Shown here: in pieces, positions 3,168 to 41,423 of the stretch | How positions within the stretch are numbered: the first letter of the stretch is position 1 | How the letters are laid out: each line of letters opens with the position of its first letter | Assembly: GCF_024464595.1 (NCBI RefSeq) | Contig: NZ_JANHAW010000002.1 | Location: 372,001 to 436,000 of the forward strand | Reading direction: 5' to 3' | DNA length: 64,000 nt | From: Halobellus litoreus | Lineage (GTDB): Archaea > Halobacteriota > Halobacteria > Halobacteriales > Haloferacaceae | Translations under genes and position numbers: made by a program | Notes under the pieces: model-generated | What the model saw: the letters and a program-made list of their open reading frames with translations, nothing else | What the model was told of the DNA's origin: nothing | The model's database searches: none

Positions 3168-3839
3168 CTACGCCCCGGGGCTGTCGTCCGCCAGGCCGTC
3201 GGCTTCGCCCGCACTGCCGGCCCACTCGATCCGGTAGACCTCGGCCTCGATCTCCTCTGTGTCGGCCTCGTGGAAGTCGAACTGTCGCTCCAGGGAGAGC
3301 GCCGCTTGGAAGGCGTGCGTGACCTCGCCACCGTGATCGGCCGCGAAAGACTCGACGAACTCCCGGGATCCCGCGTTGTGAACCGAATAGGAGACCTCCG
3401 ATATCGACGCGGCGGTTTCGAGGAAGGCCCGGTCGGCGTGTTCGTTCCCGTGCTGGGCGCCGAACGGCGGATTCATCAGGACGGTCGTCGGTCCGTCGGG
3501 GCAGATCGGCGCGCGCGTCGCGTCGGCGTGGATCCAGTCGATCGGCGTTCGCGTCCCGACTCGTCGACGGTTTTCCGCGGCCGTGGAAAGCGCCGCGCGG
3601 TCGACGTCGAGGCCGACGACCCGCGCCGGGCCTCTGAGCGCGGCCCCGAGCGCCAACATCCCGGTACCGGTCCCCAGATCGACGACCAACCGGTCCGCGA
3701 CGTCCCCGTTCAGATCCGCGACGTGGACGACGTGGGCGGCCAACTCCGGCGGCGTGGGATACTGTTCGAGATCCGCCTGCGGGTCCTCGAACCCCGCGAC
3801 GACCGCCAGTTGCGTCTCCAGCGCCGACTTCGTTCCCAT
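3168..3839 (-). CDS. METTL5-like N6-adenine (rRNA) methyltransferase
   Basis: A 223-aa class I SAM-dependent methyltransferase. Motif I is DLGTGTG at 54-60, the acidic motif II is GLDVD near 76-80, and the catalytic motif NPPFG lies at 123-127, diagnostic of N6-adenine methylation of nucleic acid. Archaeal and eukaryotic METTL5 relatives modify small-subunit rRNA, so a ribosomal RNA target is inferred. It converges on the rhomboid gene with only 21 bp between stops. The C-terminus (about 205-223) is an acidic low-complexity tail. Confidence 0.85.
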   Translation of the reverse strand: MGTKSALETQLAVVAGFEDPQADLEQYPTPPELAAHVVHVADLNGDVADRLVVDLGTGTGMLALGAALRGPARVVGLDVDRAALSTAAENRRRVGTRTPIDWIHADATRAPICPDGPTTVLMNPPFGAQHGNEHADRAFLETAASISEVSYSVHNAGSREFVESFAADHGGEVTHAFQAALSLERQFDFHEADTEEIEAEVYRIEWAGSAGEADGLADDSPGA

Positions 3840-17315: not shown

Positions 17316-17386
17316 GCGCGATACGACGACCGGTATTCGGGGGCAAGAATTTAGACGGCGGGAGGAGTGGTGGGAGGTAGACTGCA

Positions 17387-18004
17387 ATGGACGGCGCTAC
17401 ATCACGGGTCCTCGTCGTCGAAGACGAGCCCGACTTGGCCGAGCTCTACGCGATCTACCTTTCGGACCTCTACGACGTGCAGACAGCCACGAACGGGGAG
17501 ACGGCGCTCGAAATAGTCGACGCTGAGACGGACGTCGTTCTGCTCGATCGGCGAATGCCCGACCTGACCGGAGACGAGGTGCTCGAAGAGATCCGCGCGC
17601 GCGGGCTCGAGACGCAGGTCGCGATGATCACCGCCGTCGAACCGGACGTCGACATCGTCGAGATGCAGTTCGACGACTACCTGGTCAAACCCGTCACGAA
17701 GGAGGACCTCCACGGGCTCGTCGAAATTCTGCTCCGTCGGGCGAACTACGACGAGCGTTCACAGGAGTTCTTTCGGCTCGCCTCGAAGAAGGCCGCCCTG
17801 GAGTCCTCACCGGACGTCTCTGTCGAGAACGAGGCCGAGTACCGGGAGTTGGCGCAGCGGATGGAAGACATCCGCACCGAACTCGACGACACGCTGGCGG
17901 AACTCAGCGACGACGACTTCCGCGAGGCGTTCGCGTCGTTCCCTGATATCGAGGTCGACGAGTCGGGACCCGACGGCGGGGACGGCCCCGCTTCCCAGTC
18001 CTGA
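17387..18004 (+). CDS. HalX-domain response regulator
   Basis: A 205-aa protein. Residues 5-120 are a receiver domain with acidic pocket EDE (12-14), phospho-acceptor Asp54 in VVLLDRRMPD, and Lys101 in LVKP. Residues 120-180 are the HalX domain, a helical region found only in haloarchaea. There is no recognised DNA-binding domain. No histidine kinase is adjacent, so the partner is unknown. A second, similar protein is encoded at 40824-41423. A GGAGGT motif sits 8 nt before the ATG but a TATA-like aattta is also close. Confidence 0.9.
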   Translation: MDGATSRVLVVEDEPDLAELYAIYLSDLYDVQTATNGETALEIVDAETDVVLLDRRMPDLTGDEVLEEIRARGLETQVAMITAVEPDVDIVEMQFDDYLVKPVTKEDLHGLVEILLRRANYDERSQEFFRLASKKAALESSPDVSVENEAEYRELAQRMEDIRTELDDTLAELSDDDFREAFASFPDIEVDESGPDGGDGPASQS

Positions 18005-35650: not shown

Positions 35651-36139
35651 ATGGAAGCGAAGCGGGAACTGCTCGACCTGTTGCTGAGTGACGCTCGACA
35701 GAGCACCGAGGACATCGCGCGACAACTCGGTGTGGACGCAGCAACGGTCGAGGCACTGGTCGACGAACTGGAGTCCGAGGGCGCGGTCCGCGGCTACCAG
35801 GCCGTCGTCGACTGGGACAGCGTGGACGAGGGACACGTCCGCGCGGAGGTCGAGTTGAACGTCGAACTCGACCGCGAGACCGGGTACGAGGAGATCGCGC
35901 GACGCATCGCGAAGTTCCCGGAGGTCTCGTCGCTGCGGCTCATCTCCGGGAGCTACGACTTCGCCGTCGACGTCGAGGGCGAGTCGATGCACGACGTCTC
36001 GAACTTCGTCTCCGAGCAGATCGCGCCCATCCCGGAAGTCACGCAGACGGTGACCCACTTCGTGATGCGGACGTACAAAGAGCGCGGCGTCTACTTCGGC
36101 GACGGCGACGACGACGACCGCCTCGCCATCTCGCCATGA
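35651..36139 (+). CDS. Lrp/AsnC-family transcriptional regulator
   Basis: A 162-aa protein. Residues 1-50 are a winged helix-turn-helix (RQSTEDIARQLGVDAATVEALVDEL), and residues 65-150 an RAM/AsnC ligand-binding domain (VEGESMHDVSNFV). It overlaps the aminotransferase start by 4 nt (ATGA), so it probably controls amino-acid use through that enzyme. A TATA-like ccttttaat near 35617-35626 lies about 30 nt upstream. Confidence 0.9.
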   Translation: MEAKRELLDLLLSDARQSTEDIARQLGVDAATVEALVDELESEGAVRGYQAVVDWDSVDEGHVRAEVELNVELDRETGYEEIARRIAKFPEVSSLRLISGSYDFAVDVEGESMHDVSNFVSEQIAPIPEVTQTVTHFVMRTYKERGVYFGDGDDDDRLAISP

Positions 36140-37299
36140 CCGGGTTGACCGACCGGCTCTCACAGCGGGCCAGAGAGACTCCGCCGTCGGGAATCCGGCG
36201 GTTCTTCGAACTCGCCGAGGAGATGGACGACATCGTCTCGCTCGGCGTCGGCGAACCCGACTTCTCCGCGCCGTGGGCCGCCCGCGCGGCGGCGATCGAC
36301 TCCCTGGAGCGGGGCCGGACGTCCTACACCGCCAACCGGGGGCGGCGCGACCTCCGGGAACGGATCGCAGAGCACGTGACGCGCTACGGCCTCTCGTACG
36401 ACCCCGACGAGGAGATCCTCGTCAGTACGGGCGCGAGCGAGGCGGTCGACCTCGCGATGCGGGCGCTCGTCGACACCGGCGACGCCGTCGCCGTCCCGCA
36501 GCCGTCGTACATCTCGTACGGACCGACCGTGACGTTCTCGGGCGGAGAGGTCGTCCCGGTCGAGACGCACGCCGAGAACGAGTTCGTCCTCACTTACGAG
36601 GACCTCGAACGCGCGGGGGCCGCGGACGCGTCCGTCCTCGTGCTGTGTTACCCGAACAACCCCACGGGCGCGGTGATGACGCGCGAGGAACTCTCGGCGG
36701 TCGCCGAATTCGCCCGCGAGCACGACCTCTTCGTCCTCTCCGACGAGATCTACGCGGCGCTCCGCTACGAGGACGAGCACGTCTCGATCGCGACGCTCCC
36801 GGGGATGCGCGAGCGGACCGTCGTGTTCAACGGGTTCTCGAAGGCCTACGCGATGACGGGGATGCGTCTGGGCTACGCCCTCGGCCCGTCGGAAGTGATC
36901 GACGCGATGAACCGGATTCACCAGTACACGATGCTGTCGGCGCCGACCACGGCGCAGTTCGCGGCGATAGAGGCCCTCGAATCCTGTGACGGCGCGGTCG
37001 AGGAGATGCGCACCGAGTTCGACCGCCGCCGCAAGTTCGTCATCTCGCGGTTCAACGAGATCGGCATGGACTGCTTCGAGGCTGAGGGCGCGTTCTACGT
37101 CTTCCCGAAGTGTCCACCCGGTTGGGAGGACGACGAGGCGTTCGCGGAGGCGCTCATCCGCGAGGAGCGCGTCGCGCTCGTCCCGGGCCGCGTCTTCGGC
37201 GAGGGTGGCCGGGGTCACCTCCGCGTCTCCTACGCGTCCGGGATGGGCGAACTGAAGGAGGCGCTGAACCGGATCGAGTCCTTCGTGGCCGACCACTGA
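36136..37299 (+). CDS. PLP-dependent aminotransferase (fold type I)
   Basis: A 387-aa class I/II aminotransferase. PLP-binding hallmarks are the N-terminal SLGVGEPDF, the aldehyde-ring contact NNPTG (NPTG at about 171-174), SDEIYA, and the Schiff-base Lys in FNGFSKAYAMTGMRLGY. The C-terminal VSYASGMGEL holds the substrate-carboxylate Arg region. Aspartate or aromatic specificity is typical; the true substrate is unknown. Coupling to an Lrp regulator fits amino-acid metabolism. Confidence 0.9.
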   Translation: MTGLTDRLSQRARETPPSGIRRFFELAEEMDDIVSLGVGEPDFSAPWAARAAAIDSLERGRTSYTANRGRRDLRERIAEHVTRYGLSYDPDEEILVSTGASEAVDLAMRALVDTGDAVAVPQPSYISYGPTVTFSGGEVVPVETHAENEFVLTYEDLERAGAADASVLVLCYPNNPTGAVMTREELSAVAEFAREHDLFVLSDEIYAALRYEDEHVSIATLPGMRERTVVFNGFSKAYAMTGMRLGYALGPSEVIDAMNRIHQYTMLSAPTTAQFAAIEALESCDGAVEEMRTEFDRRRKFVISRFNEIGMDCFEAEGAFYVFPKCPPGWEDDEAFAEALIREERVALVPGRVFGEGGRGHLRVSYASGMGELKEALNRIESFVADH

Positions 37300-37435: not shown

Positions 37436-38254
37436 ATGCACGCAGGTGGCGGTACCGACGAGGCGACCGTCGGTGCCACTGTGGGCGTCGCGACCGCCCT
37501 CGACGATCTGAAATCCCGCGGCAGCGCGCTCCTGATCGTCGGATCGGTGCCGCAAGACGTTTACGGCCGGGTCTCGGCGTGCCTCCTCGGCGAAAACGGC
37601 GACGAGGACCGCCGTCGGCTCGTGGTCAAACGAGGGCCGGAAGCGGATAGCCGGTTCGACCGCATCGAAAGCTGGACCCCGGAGTGGACTCGGATCTTCA
37701 GTTACGACGTCGACGCCCGATCCGCGACAGACGCGGCGGGAGCCACGGGTGCGGGATCGAGTTTCGACCCCGACGGCCCGGACGCCCCCTCCTCGCCGAC
37801 CGCACCGTCACCGATCGAATCCGATGCGGGCCCGTTCGACGCCTACAGCCGAAGACAGGGCCCGGAGGACGTCACGGTCACGATCCGGGGGTCGATCGCC
37901 GAACTCGGCGTCGAAATCGGGACCGCGATCCGGGAGTTCGACGCCGTCGCGGGCGGTCTCGATCCCGCCGAGTTGCGCGTTGCCCTGGACTGCGTGGCAC
38001 CGCTGCTCTCGGAGTACGACAGGCGGACGGTGTTTCGCTTCCTCCACGTCCTCGCGAACGACATCAGATCGGTCGGCGGGATGGGCCACGTCAGAGTGCC
38101 CGAGCCGCTCGAATCGGAGATAGTGCGCCTCCTCGCGCCGCTTTTCGACGCGGTCGTCGAACTGCGACTCGACGGCAGAGAGCCACAGCAGCGCTGGCAT
38201 CTCCGCGACGCCGACCTCTCCTCGGAGTGGCTCCCGATCGAAAGCCGAGCATAA
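37436..38254 (+). CDS. Degenerate RecA/KaiC-fold protein (DUF7504-type), partner of CHAT protease
   Basis: A 272-aa soluble protein. The N-terminus ALDDLKSRGSALLIVGSVPQ resembles the P-loop strand of KaiC/GvpD-like ATPases, but the P-loop Gly-Lys-Thr/Ser is missing, so it is probably not an ATPase. The central region 90-135 is a Pro/Ser/Ala-rich linker, and residues 140-270 form a second alpha/beta domain. I believe it belongs to the haloarchaeal family called DUF7504, from memory. It lies 48 bp upstream of the CHAT gene in the same direction. The ATG at 37436 fits the TATA box. Confidence 0.65.
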   Translation: MHAGGGTDEATVGATVGVATALDDLKSRGSALLIVGSVPQDVYGRVSACLLGENGDEDRRRLVVKRGPEADSRFDRIESWTPEWTRIFSYDVDARSATDAAGATGAGSSFDPDGPDAPSSPTAPSPIESDAGPFDAYSRRQGPEDVTVTIRGSIAELGVEIGTAIREFDAVAGGLDPAELRVALDCVAPLLSEYDRRTVFRFLHVLANDIRSVGGMGHVRVPEPLESEIVRLLAPLFDAVVELRLDGREPQQRWHLRDADLSSEWLPIESRA

Positions 38255-38302
38255 CGCCGATCACCAGTACGCTTTTTGCGGCGTAAGTGATGTATTGGCA
38301 CG

Positions 38303-40489
38303 ATGGAAGGGCTCGGCGGCCACACGGCGTCAGCGGGGGACCCGGTCGCGTCGACCGGAGCGGATCACCTCCAGGTCGAGTTCGAGAGTTCGACCGAGCA
38401 GACCGAACTCGTGGTCTCCGACCCGATCGAGCGGAGCCAGTTCGTGCTCTCTTCGCCCAGTCCGATGCGGATCCGACAGGCCGATCCGAACGCGTTTCGG
38501 TTCCCGGCTGACGGTGCGGTGAGCGCCCGAACGGACCGCCTGGACCTCGAAACCGTGGTTTCGGTCTGTGTTCGCGACGGCGACGGCAACATGATCGCCC
38601 AGGCGGAGCACTTCGCCGACGAGTCGTTTCCGGCCGGGACCTACAGCGTCGAACTGTTCGCCCCGATCAAGCTCTATCTCCGCGTCGATTCGCCGCTGCG
38701 CGTTGTCTCGGATGCCACGCAAACGCGCCTGGAATTCGGCGAGGAGACCGACGTGCTCGTCGGCGCGCGGTCGCATCACAAACGCCCGGCGGCGACGATT
38801 CGGACGACGGATCGGCCACGCGACGCGATGCGTGCGGTCTCGCTCCTCGGGTCGGCGCTGAAGACGACGAGCGTCGAGCGGTCGTACCCGACGCTCCGCG
38901 GGCACCCGCCGCTCATCGAGCGCGGCACTCGATTCGACGCGCCGGACGGACTGGAGCCGCCGGCGACGGACGTCACGCTGGAACTGCCCGAGACGCATCG
39001 GCACGTCTACACCGCCGCACCGCTCGCCTACTACCTCGGGGCGACCGTCGTTCCCGGACCGTCGGCCCGCATCGTGACCGAAGGCGGATTCAGCCACGAA
39101 CTCGACGGGACGGGCGGCTTCGAGCGGGCCGTCGAGCGGGTGCTCAAACAGACCTTCTTCCTGGACTGTCTCACCCGGACCGAGGGGTACTACGAGGTCG
39201 ACTTACACGAGCGGCGGACGCTGGAACCGACGCTCGGGCTGGATTTCGCGGACCTGTACGACCGATCGATCGGTGAGCAACTCGAGGCGTATCTCGACGT
39301 TCCGTACGACGCCGTCGAGGCGGAGATCCCCGACTGGAAGCTGACTGCACACGTCGCGCCTAATGCGTCGAACGTCGAGGTGCTGCCGTTCGTCGCGAAC
39401 GATCTCGCCGTGGTGACGACGCCCCAGTCGGAGCCGACCGCCGGATCGACCGTTCAGGCGAACGCAGTCGGCGACTTCGTTCGCGGACCGCCGGAGCCGA
39501 CCGCGACCCCGTCGAAGCCCGGAGAGTTCACGCGCAGCGCCGGCACGCGCAGTCAGAACGCCCGGAGCGCCGACGCCCAGCGGGCGTACGTCCAGCCCCC
39601 GGAGACCGACTCGCTGGAACAGGCGTGGCTCGGACCCGGGATCCCGATCGGGGCGAGCAAGGCGTCGTTGCAGGCCTATCGGAATCGACTGTCGCGGGAG
39701 CCGATCGAGGGAGACATCGGGATCACCGTCGTCTGTAACGACCCCCGGATGGCCGAGGAGCGCGACGCCGTCGAGGACGTGTACGGGTCCCGCGAGGAAC
39801 TCCCGTTCGACATCAGGACGCACTACGAGCTGACGACCGAAGAACTCCGAGCGGTGCTCGCCGAAGAGACGGAGTTCCTCCACTACATCGGCCACATCGA
39901 CGAGGACGGGTTCCAGTGTCCGGACGGGGCGCTCGACGTCACGACGATCGACACGATCGGCGTCGATTCGTTCCTCCTCAACGCGTGTCAGTCCTACGAG
40001 CAGGGGATGGAACTCATCGAGCGGGGCGCGATCGCGGGCATCGTCACGCTGAGCGACGTCGTCAACAGCGGCGCAGTCGACATCGGACGGAGCCTCGCGC
40101 GACTGTTGAACTACGGGTTCCCGATTCGGATCTCGCTGGATCTGGCCTGCAAAGACAGTTACATCGGAAGCGACTACATCGTCGTCGGCGACGGGAGTTT
40201 CTCCGTAGCACAGGTGCAGGCGATGCTCCCGAATATGTGTGATATAACCCGGAACGGTGATACGTTTACCGTCGACTACCGGACGTTTCCCTCCGCAGAG
40301 TACGAACTCGGTAGCCTCGTTGTCCCGTACGTTCCCGGTAACGAGACCTATTATCTCACATCTGGTACTGCAGACGTCTTCGAGTTGACGCAGTCAGAAC
40401 TGACCGACTTTCTTTCGTTGGAGAACGTCCCTACGATGGTGGACGGATCGTTGTACTGGAGCGATAAGCTATCTCTGGATTCGATCTGA
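38303..40489 (+). CDS. CHAT-domain (caspase-like) protease
   Basis: A 728-aa soluble protein. The C-terminal half (about 500-650) has the CHAT/caspase catalytic pair: His531 in LHYIGHIDEDG and Cys562 in LLNACQSYEQG, 31 residues apart, followed by GAIAGIVTLSDVV. The N-terminal 400 residues form beta-rich and alpha/beta domains with no known name; a linker of low complexity (about 395-440) joins them. CHAT proteases in bacteria act in programmed cell death or gasdermin activation. The substrate is not evident; the next-door 47-aa peptide is a candidate. No signal peptide, so it is cytoplasmic. Confidence 0.8.
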   Translation: MEGLGGHTASAGDPVASTGADHLQVEFESSTEQTELVVSDPIERSQFVLSSPSPMRIRQADPNAFRFPADGAVSARTDRLDLETVVSVCVRDGDGNMIAQAEHFADESFPAGTYSVELFAPIKLYLRVDSPLRVVSDATQTRLEFGEETDVLVGARSHHKRPAATIRTTDRPRDAMRAVSLLGSALKTTSVERSYPTLRGHPPLIERGTRFDAPDGLEPPATDVTLELPETHRHVYTAAPLAYYLGATVVPGPSARIVTEGGFSHELDGTGGFERAVERVLKQTFFLDCLTRTEGYYEVDLHERRTLEPTLGLDFADLYDRSIGEQLEAYLDVPYDAVEAEIPDWKLTAHVAPNASNVEVLPFVANDLAVVTTPQSEPTAGSTVQANAVGDFVRGPPEPTATPSKPGEFTRSAGTRSQNARSADAQRAYVQPPETDSLEQAWLGPGIPIGASKASLQAYRNRLSREPIEGDIGITVVCNDPRMAEERDAVEDVYGSREELPFDIRTHYELTTEELRAVLAEETEFLHYIGHIDEDGFQCPDGALDVTTIDTIGVDSFLLNACQSYEQGMELIERGAIAGIVTLSDVVNSGAVDIGRSLARLLNYGFPIRISLDLACKDSYIGSDYIVVGDGSFSVAQVQAMLPNMCDITRNGDTFTVDYRTFPSAEYELGSLVVPYVPGNETYYLTSGTADVFELTQSELTDFLSLENVPTMVDGSLYWSDKLSLDSI

Positions 40490-40490
40490 G

Positions 40491-40634
40491 TTAGGGACCC
40501 GAAATCGCGCCGTGGTTGCCAGCCGCGACTGCGCCAGCCTGCGAGAGCAGGAGCAGCGCGGTGAAGAGGACGCCCATCGCGCGGGGGTGTTCGGAGAGGT
40601 ACTGTGCGACCGCGTTGGTGTCATTTTCGGACAT
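40491..40634 (-). CDS. Small membrane/exported peptide (DUF7503-type)
   Basis: A 47-aa protein. It has a short polar N-terminus (SENDTNAVAQYLSEHPR), one hydrophobic helix (about 21-38: MGVLFTALLLLSQAGAVAA) and a 9-residue tail GNHGAISGP. The helix looks like a signal peptide, so cleavage would release a tiny peptide. I recall similar 45-50-residue haloarchaeal proteins ending in GP. It converges on the CHAT gene with one base between stops. The start is the ATG at 40634; the longer ORF start is less likely because the TATA lies 28 nt upstream of this one. Confidence 0.65.
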   Translation of the reverse strand: MSENDTNAVAQYLSEHPRAMGVLFTALLLLSQAGAVAAGNHGAISGP

Positions 40635-40657
40635 GACGATTGGTACGTCGGCTCGCT

Positions 40658-40673
40658 TTAAAATAAAATTTTC
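40658..40673 (-). promoter_or_regulatory. Strong A+T-rich TATA element for the 47-aa peptide
   Basis: A 16-nt run of only A and T except one (tttaaaataaaatttt) lies 24-39 nt upstream of the ATG. It is the longest such run before a start in this window, fitting a leaderless, highly expressed message. The A+T-rich tract continues to about 40735. Confidence 0.6.
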
Positions 40674-40823
40674 TGACACTTTCTGATATAATATTATATT
40701 AATTTAGTACCTGAAGAACGACACAAAAAGATATACGGCACCGAGAGCGTCTCTCGAGGCCTGGGTGTCACTCAAAAACGTCTTTCGCCGACGAACCTGC
40801 GAAACGCCGAGCCGGACCTGTCG

Positions 40824-41423
40824 TTACTCGGAACTACTAGTTTCGGCGTCAAAATCGTCGCCGAGGTCCCGGTACATCGCCGTGAAGTCGTGCTCCTCGT
40901 CGAACGACGTGAGCGTCTCGTCGAGCTGGGCGCGAAGGTTGCGGACGCGCTCCGTGAGCTCCTGGTACTCCTCGTGCTCTTCGAGGGTGGCCGCGTCCTT
41001 CTCCGACTCCAGGAGCGCCTTCTTCGAGGCGAGTGCGAACAGCTCCTGAATGCCGTCGTCGTAGGTGTTTCGGCGGAGTAGGTTCTCGACGGTCTCCTTC
41101 AGCGAGTCCCGCGAGACCGGCTTGACCAGGTAGTCGTCGAAGCCCATCGCGACGATGTCGAAGTCCGGTTCGACCGCGGTGACCATCGCCACGCGACACC
41201 CGACGTCGCGCTCGCGGATCGCCTCCAGCGCCTCGTCGCCTGAGAGATCGGGCATCCGCCGGTCGAGCAGGACGACGTCGACCTCCTCGTCGAGCTCTTC
41301 GAGCGCCTCGCGGCCGCCGTAGGCGACGCGAACGCGATACTCGTCTCTCAACCACGTTGCGTACAGGTCGGCGAGGTCCGGCTCGTCTTCGACGACGAGC
41401 ACCATCGGCAGGTCAGCACTCAT
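40824..41423 (-). CDS. HalX-domain response regulator
   Basis: A 199-aa protein with the same layout as the HalX protein at 17387-18004. The receiver has EDE (12-14), phospho-acceptor Asp54 (VVLLDRRMPD) and Lys101 (LVKP). HalX covers about 120-180. It is on the same strand as the 47-aa peptide, 189 bp upstream of it, and faces the CHAT gene, so the phosphosignal may act on this locus. No kinase is adjacent. Confidence 0.9.
   Translation of the reverse strand: MSADLPMVLVVEDEPDLADLYATWLRDEYRVRVAYGGREALEELDEEVDVVLLDRRMPDLSGDEALEAIRERDVGCRVAMVTAVEPDFDIVAMGFDDYLVKPVSRDSLKETVENLLRRNTYDDGIQELFALASKKALLESEKDAATLEEHEEYQELTERVRNLRAQLDETLTSFDEEHDFTAMYRDLGDDFDAETSSSE

Follow-up and report, generated by a model that had tools for sequence, protein, structure and literature searches.

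CHAT proteases of bacterial immunity, among them SAVED-CHAT, the TPR-CHAT protein Csx29 of Craspase and the gasdermin activators, have in common a clan-CD fold, a His/Cys dyad and a partner protein. For archaea, very high stress-linked caspase-like activity has been described in Haloferax volcanii and other species, although no homologous gene accounted for it (PMC3615174). In the literature that we searched, no text linked CHAT proteins with haloarchaea and none described the CHAT–peptide pair reported here. The pair lies in a 64,000-nucleotide stretch of the Halobellus litoreus genome (assembly GCF_024464595.1, contig NZ_JANHAW010000002.1, positions 372,001 to 436,000; hereafter the window), where a preliminary description had placed, at 37436–41423, a four-gene signaling module of a CHAT protease, a RecA-fold protein with a decayed P-loop, a short exported-looking peptide and a HalX response regulator. 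All four genes were found at these coordinates (Table 1), and the CHAT-protease module is supported, but the four-gene unit is lineage-specific: the near-obligate core is the CHAT gene and its convergent peptide gene, two genes rather than four.

We surveyed the pairing in 75 genomes from 71 genera, counting matches to DUF7503, the family of the window's peptide (76.2 bits), above the Pfam cut-off of 27 bits. CHAT genes were split by profile score into group A (≥600), which includes the window's gene and is the only group in the H. litoreus genome, and group B, a second and more distant paralogue. Directly 3′ of the CHAT gene and on the opposite strand, 89 of the 100 group-A genes had a DUF7503 gene, the gap having a median of ~20 nt (mostly 2–100 nt and often 0–20 nt). 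Of the 90 DUF7503 genes, 89 adjoined a listed CHAT gene and the remaining one an unlisted CHAT gene (L097); genomes without a group-A CHAT gave no DUF7503 match above the family cut-off. The pairs recur in differing surroundings and on plasmids (including L059/L128). Such class-wide adjacency is far above chance, and the CHAT–DUF7503 pairing is not a chance association. The check for co-occurrence across Halobacteria that had been suggested for the module thus found CHAT homologues beside the other families.

Group-B genes often occupy a fixed site between the genes for serine hydroxymethyltransferase (SHMT) and the TbsP regulator in many genera (L111–L126, L100–L105), and a recognizable DUF7503 is rare beside them. 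Nevertheless, at 12 of 24 group-B loci a convergent open reading frame (ORF) in the same slot ended in Gly-Pro, one of them a DUF7503 (L097), compared with 0.27% of background ORFs (Fisher P = 1e-21 for the convergent slot as a whole with DUF7503 removed). These peptides are of several kinds, including a RAKRVSTYGGP type that lacks a hydrophobic segment and anchored forms that end in STGP, and mostly show no detectable homology to DUF7503; the -GP end is thus common to otherwise unlike peptides. The distance between CHAT proteins correlates with that between the peptide tails (r = 0.46) and leaders (r = 0.40). Together, these sequence patterns mark the peptide as a probable dedicated partner of the protease. 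One group-B locus (L115) holds a second short ORF (3415–3558, minus strand), whose product ends in NRVSTYSGP. It lies opposite in strand to the convergent peptide, which ends in RVTTYSGP, and looks like a duplicate of the tail.

The protease itself was recognized through its structure. No CHAT or peptidase profile of Pfam, NCBIfam or PADLOC matched the protein at E ≤ 1, and a profile of the family found no match among PDB sequences; the CHAT assignment therefore rests on fold and motif. The AlphaFold2 model, built with 73 homologues, has a predicted local distance difference test (pLDDT) of 88.6 and a predicted template modeling score of 0.89, and its top Foldseek matches in the PDB were SAVED-CHAT (E = 1.4e-7), separase (2.1e-7) and gingipain (4.8e-6), procaspase-3 being weaker. 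In the model, N-terminal β-rich and α/β regions are followed by a disordered linker (~395–417), the CHAT domain (~437–640) and a C-terminal region; no receptor repeats, TPR match or transmembrane segment were recognized. By its modeled fold the protein is a CHAT/clan-CD cysteine protease, with predicted catalytic activity. The His531/Cys562 pair, described earlier as intact, was invariant in all 74 homologues, a diverse set reaching down to 38% identity, and remained in 117 of 119 once group-B and remote homologues were included, the exceptions being a truncated locus and a homologue from outside Halobacteria. Two positions ahead of the catalytic Cys stands an Asn.

Of the 391 Halobacteria genomes, 365 (~93%), belonging to 78 of 86 genera, encode a homologue, and remote homologues (E ~ 1e-65) occur in one other family of the same phylum. 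The remote homologues outside the class that we read (L107–L110) carry NSC or NCC motifs and no -GP peptide, and one lacks both catalytic residues. Most public relatives are labeled "hypothetical", and a few bear the names "CHAT domain-containing" or "caspase family". A reading as a defense system was rejected, since PADLOC gave no match for CHAT, DUF7504 (the RecA-fold protein) or the peptide and neither the CHAT nor the peptide gene was found on a viral contig; the HalX protein had one weak PADLOC match, to a cyclase model. Gasdermin activation, mentioned in the preliminary description, gained no support: neither the four genes nor the recurrent neighbors scanned included a recognizable gasdermin, distant or novel pore formers being outside the reach of the scan.

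The DUF7503 peptides consist of a leader, YLxxHPRMMGVLFTxLLLLSQAG, kept residue by residue, and a tail of the form A-[GAN]-N-x5-G-P. In the window's peptide a 19-residue hydrophobic segment (Kyte–Doolittle 1.86) with an AxA-like end makes "exported-looking" a fair description of its appearance, export and topology being predictions from sequence. Among 74 unique peptides, 61 terminate in -GP and 56 share a fixed spacing of 31 residues between the Pro of HPR and the C terminus; the R/K of HP[RK] is nearly invariant (55 of 56 peptides). The -GP tail, which the preliminary description did not mention, is in our view the most telling part of the peptide.

The clearest evidence for this comes from Haloplanus, where in six genomes (loci L016, L018, L019, L020, L021 and L025; L019, identical to L034, is Haloplanus ruber) the hydrophobic leader is lost and the tail multiplied into 4, 5, 7, 7, 10 and 13 units. 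The gene keeps its place 3′ of CHAT on the opposite strand, its first encoded residues and its upstream region, and the protein consists of ADGN[GS][GS]GISGP units joined by a dipeptide and always ends exactly in ISGP. Copies of the core unit GN[GS][GS]GISGP within one protein differ by synonymous codons only, at nearly every codon in the 13-copy protein and with AGC/TCC serine swaps in two others. In a class-wide search such tail-repeat proteins were convincing in Haloplanus only, in six of the eight genomes of the genus. Because the repeats vary synonymously and have no leader, they are strong evidence, from codon patterns, that the tail is translated, is under selection and can probably work without a membrane leader. 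The loss of the leader together with the amplification of the tail points to the C-terminal tail as the functional element.

We propose that the pair is a haloarchaeal two-gene control unit in which the peptide tail is a ligand of its own CHAT protein, a reading to which we give a probability of about 0.5. A cytoplasmic caspase-like CHAT and a very small protein would be encoded tail to tail, the peptide being expressed from its own promoter; the tail A-G-N-x5-G-P-COOH would bind the cognate CHAT and set its proteolytic activity, inhibiting or activating an enzyme presumed to be active on some downstream substrate. The hydrophobic leader would be a dispensable tether or localization device, which in Haloplanus may be replaced by several tails on one soluble chain, and DUF7504 and HalX or receiver proteins would provide lineage-specific signal inputs. 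The alternation of anchored single tails and soluble multi-tail chains suggests, by analogy with the control of caspases by induced proximity, that local concentration or multivalency matters.

Several observations weigh against this proposal. Its main difficulty is that a leader acting as a Sec-type signal or N-in anchor would place the tail outside the cell, away from CHAT; the leaderless peptide forms are the main argument for a ligand nonetheless. Of the 71 DUF7503 peptides in pairs, 12 do not end in -GP, several positions in the tail show free variation, and for some CHAT copies (about 8 of 90 in group A and 12 of 24 in group B) a peptide was not found. Pairing and the correlation of distances could, moreover, stem from joint inheritance without contact. 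A scan for coevolution with the loss of GP singled out CHAT residues K123 and L198; we set this aside, as 12 cases, in part related, are not enough.

The same features can be read otherwise. The preliminary description suggested testing whether CHAT cuts the peptide; as a substrate, the peptide might be cleaved at HP[RK], ahead of the hydrophobic stretch, or between repeats, releasing a bioactive tail or leader. The one-to-one dedication of the partners and the conserved R/K would fit, many clan-CD proteases preferring a basic P1 residue, and the tandem Haloplanus units resemble poly-substrates or prohormones. However, the Haloplanus repeat proteins have no HP[RK], that of L025 lacks Arg and Lys altogether, and selection falls on the exact C terminus rather than on an internal site; the Asn before the catalytic Cys also differs from the Asp of Arg/Lys-specific metacaspases, although that comparison is one of analogy. 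With HP[RK] lost in Haloplanus, we rejected cleavage after a P1 Arg at this motif as the essential event, and we regard a substrate role in general as unlikely. A still less probable role is that of a secreted signal, with a Sec leader, a nonapeptide pheromone and CHAT as the receiver, possibly after re-import as for the intracellular peptide receptors of Gram-positive bacteria. The signal-peptide-like leader with its AxA-like end, its conservation relative to a variable tail, the adjoining gene for a possible receptor, the receiver-domain proteins nearby and the differences in tail between CHAT–peptide paralogues inside one genome would all suit such a system, but neither the Haloplanus repeats nor the Natrialbaceae-type group-B peptides have a hydrophobic leader, the leader is conserved far beyond the needs of a Sec signal, and CHAT shows none of the receptor repeats or membrane segments looked for.

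A ligand role for the tail also has to be weighed against readings that dispense with the peptide as a working product. Convergent genes that are often nearly contiguous could silence CHAT through overlapping transcripts, and a Gly-Pro end after a signal-like leader recalls SecM, which ends in GIRAGP and stalls ribosomes. Strong amino acid selection and purely synonymous change inside repeats would not be expected of an antisense RNA, and up to 12 internal copies of GISGP precede the last, making strong stalling unlikely; we consider either mechanism very improbable. That the two genes are coincidental neighbors in an inherited chromosomal block, with no functional link, is suggested by the fixed chromosomal spots of some CHAT copies, such as that of group B between SHMT and TbsP. 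The recurrence of pairs in different surroundings and on plasmids, their matching presence and absence, and the same slot and -GP end in peptides without detectable homology speak against it, and the pairing and group-B slot data have already largely refuted this explanation, to which we attach next to no credence.

The remaining two genes of the window's locus are less constant. The AlphaFold2 model of DUF7504 (pLDDT 86) matched KaiC CI in Foldseek (E = 3.6e-7), and the P-loop position reads VGSVPQDV instead of GxxxxGK[ST], the Walker A motif being absent throughout the homologue alignment (VGSVPxxx); the earlier description of a RecA fold with a decayed P-loop was thus accurate. Of 60 group-A CHAT loci, 27 (~45%) have a DUF7504 gene no more than 1.5 kb away, although the window's genome holds only four DUF7504-type genes. 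The three others (C2:271521, C1:1291880 and C1:1451729 of genome G000; L084–L086) also match DUF7090, and one sister paralogue weakly matches PF06745 KaiC (2e-4); by sequence, DUF7504 and DUF7090 look like one KaiC-like superfamily. The HalX response regulator was likewise named correctly: it contains both expected domains, and its receiver is intact, with phospho-Asp D54, T82 and K101 invariant in the alignment. It is orthologous and fixed beside CHAT in several Haloferacaceae-type genera, with only 3 HalX loci in the window's genome and 2–7 per genome in ten genomes checked, and HalX or receiver-PAS(-GAF) proteins also adjoin CHAT in some other families. DUF7504 and the HalX/receiver genes look like interchangeable accessory inputs, not obligate parts. 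Recurring same-strand ORFs upstream of some loci were rejected, since most appear to be shadows of opposite-strand genes (SHMT, glyoxalase).

The claim of intact promoters was examined for the peptide gene only, where the upstream element TATCAGAAAGTGTCAGAAAA adjoins an A+T-rich, TATA-like stretch, is conserved in relatives and is unique in the genome when up to one mismatch is allowed. Within it, TCAGAAAG/TGTCAGAAAA form a conserved, genome-unique element resembling a direct repeat, a candidate activator site. The flanking genes are ordinary, an aminotransferase upstream (36136–37299) and an IMP dehydrogenase downstream (from 41563). A second HalX response regulator in the window (17381–18001, plus strand) has no link to CHAT.

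Table 1. Features of the CHAT locus in the Halobellus litoreus window
Feature	Position	Strand	Evidence or remark
DUF7504 protein, 272 aa, upstream of CHAT	37436..38254	+	PF24336, E 2.9e-52, 178 bits
CHAT/clan-CD cysteine protease (by modeled fold), 728 aa	38303..40489	+	AlphaFold2 and Foldseek fold
Predicted catalytic His531 codon, motif HYIGHID	39893..39895	+	H in 74/74 homologues
Predicted catalytic Cys562 codon, motif LNACQS	39986..39988	+	C in 74/74 homologues
DUF7503 peptide, 47 aa, convergent with CHAT	40491..40634	-	PF24335, E 1.4e-21
DUF7503 C-terminal tail GNHGAISGP	40494..40520	-	Gly-Pro terminus, the shared signature
Upstream element TATCAGAAAGTGTCAGAAAA of the peptide gene	40669..40688	-	Conserved in relatives, genome-unique
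HalX response regulator, receiver and HalX domains	40824..41423	-	PF00072, PF08663; lineage-specific neighbor

The CHAT family, including its members in Haloferax, offers a way to approach the unexplained caspase-like activity of haloarchaea at the level of genes. Haloferax volcanii, used as a control genome, has DUF7503, DUF7504 and HalX matches, and the full CHAT arrangement was read in Haloferax marinum (L035). Since the conserved CHAT has an invariant dyad and a dedicated peptide, gene deletion can now put the question to the test. The peptide gene was not listed in one plasmid record checked, the gene table of that record being incomplete. If the -GP tail does control the protease, it would represent a new micro-protein route to regulating a caspase-like enzyme. 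More tentatively, and with less confidence than we place in the ligand itself, the pair may embody an undescribed archaeal principle, in which a class-wide caspase-like protease responds to the free Gly-Pro C terminus of its partner, anchored single tails and soluble tandem ones can replace each other, the enzyme is activated or silenced by multivalency, and the Haloferax caspase-like activity may be supplied in this way.

Among known systems, the tiny adjoining gene, signal-like leader and short C-terminal tail make the Gram-positive RRNPP pairs an analogue, but the haloarchaeal CHAT gave no TPR match, and the existence of leaderless repeat and soluble peptides argues against RRNPP-type signaling. 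The free C termini of partner proteins regulate the protease DegS; the C-terminal peptides of outer-membrane proteins acting on it offer a functional analogy, although DegS is an unrelated protease and the haloarchaeal CHAT has no PDZ domain. The Pfam families DUF7503 and DUF7504 have members here; Pfam offers neither a function nor a link to CHAT, and the -GP rule crosses family borders. Within clan CD, the fold matches separase and gingipain at E values of 2e-7 to 5e-6, but the haloarchaeal protein differs from separase, gingipain and caspase in having no sequence-level Pfam or PDB match and no securin. The bacterial immune CHATs work with SAVED, TPR, gRAMP or gasdermin partners, none of which were recognized here, whereas the haloarchaeal CHAT is paired with a short -GP peptide and, unlike patchily distributed defense systems, belongs in part to the core genome of its class.

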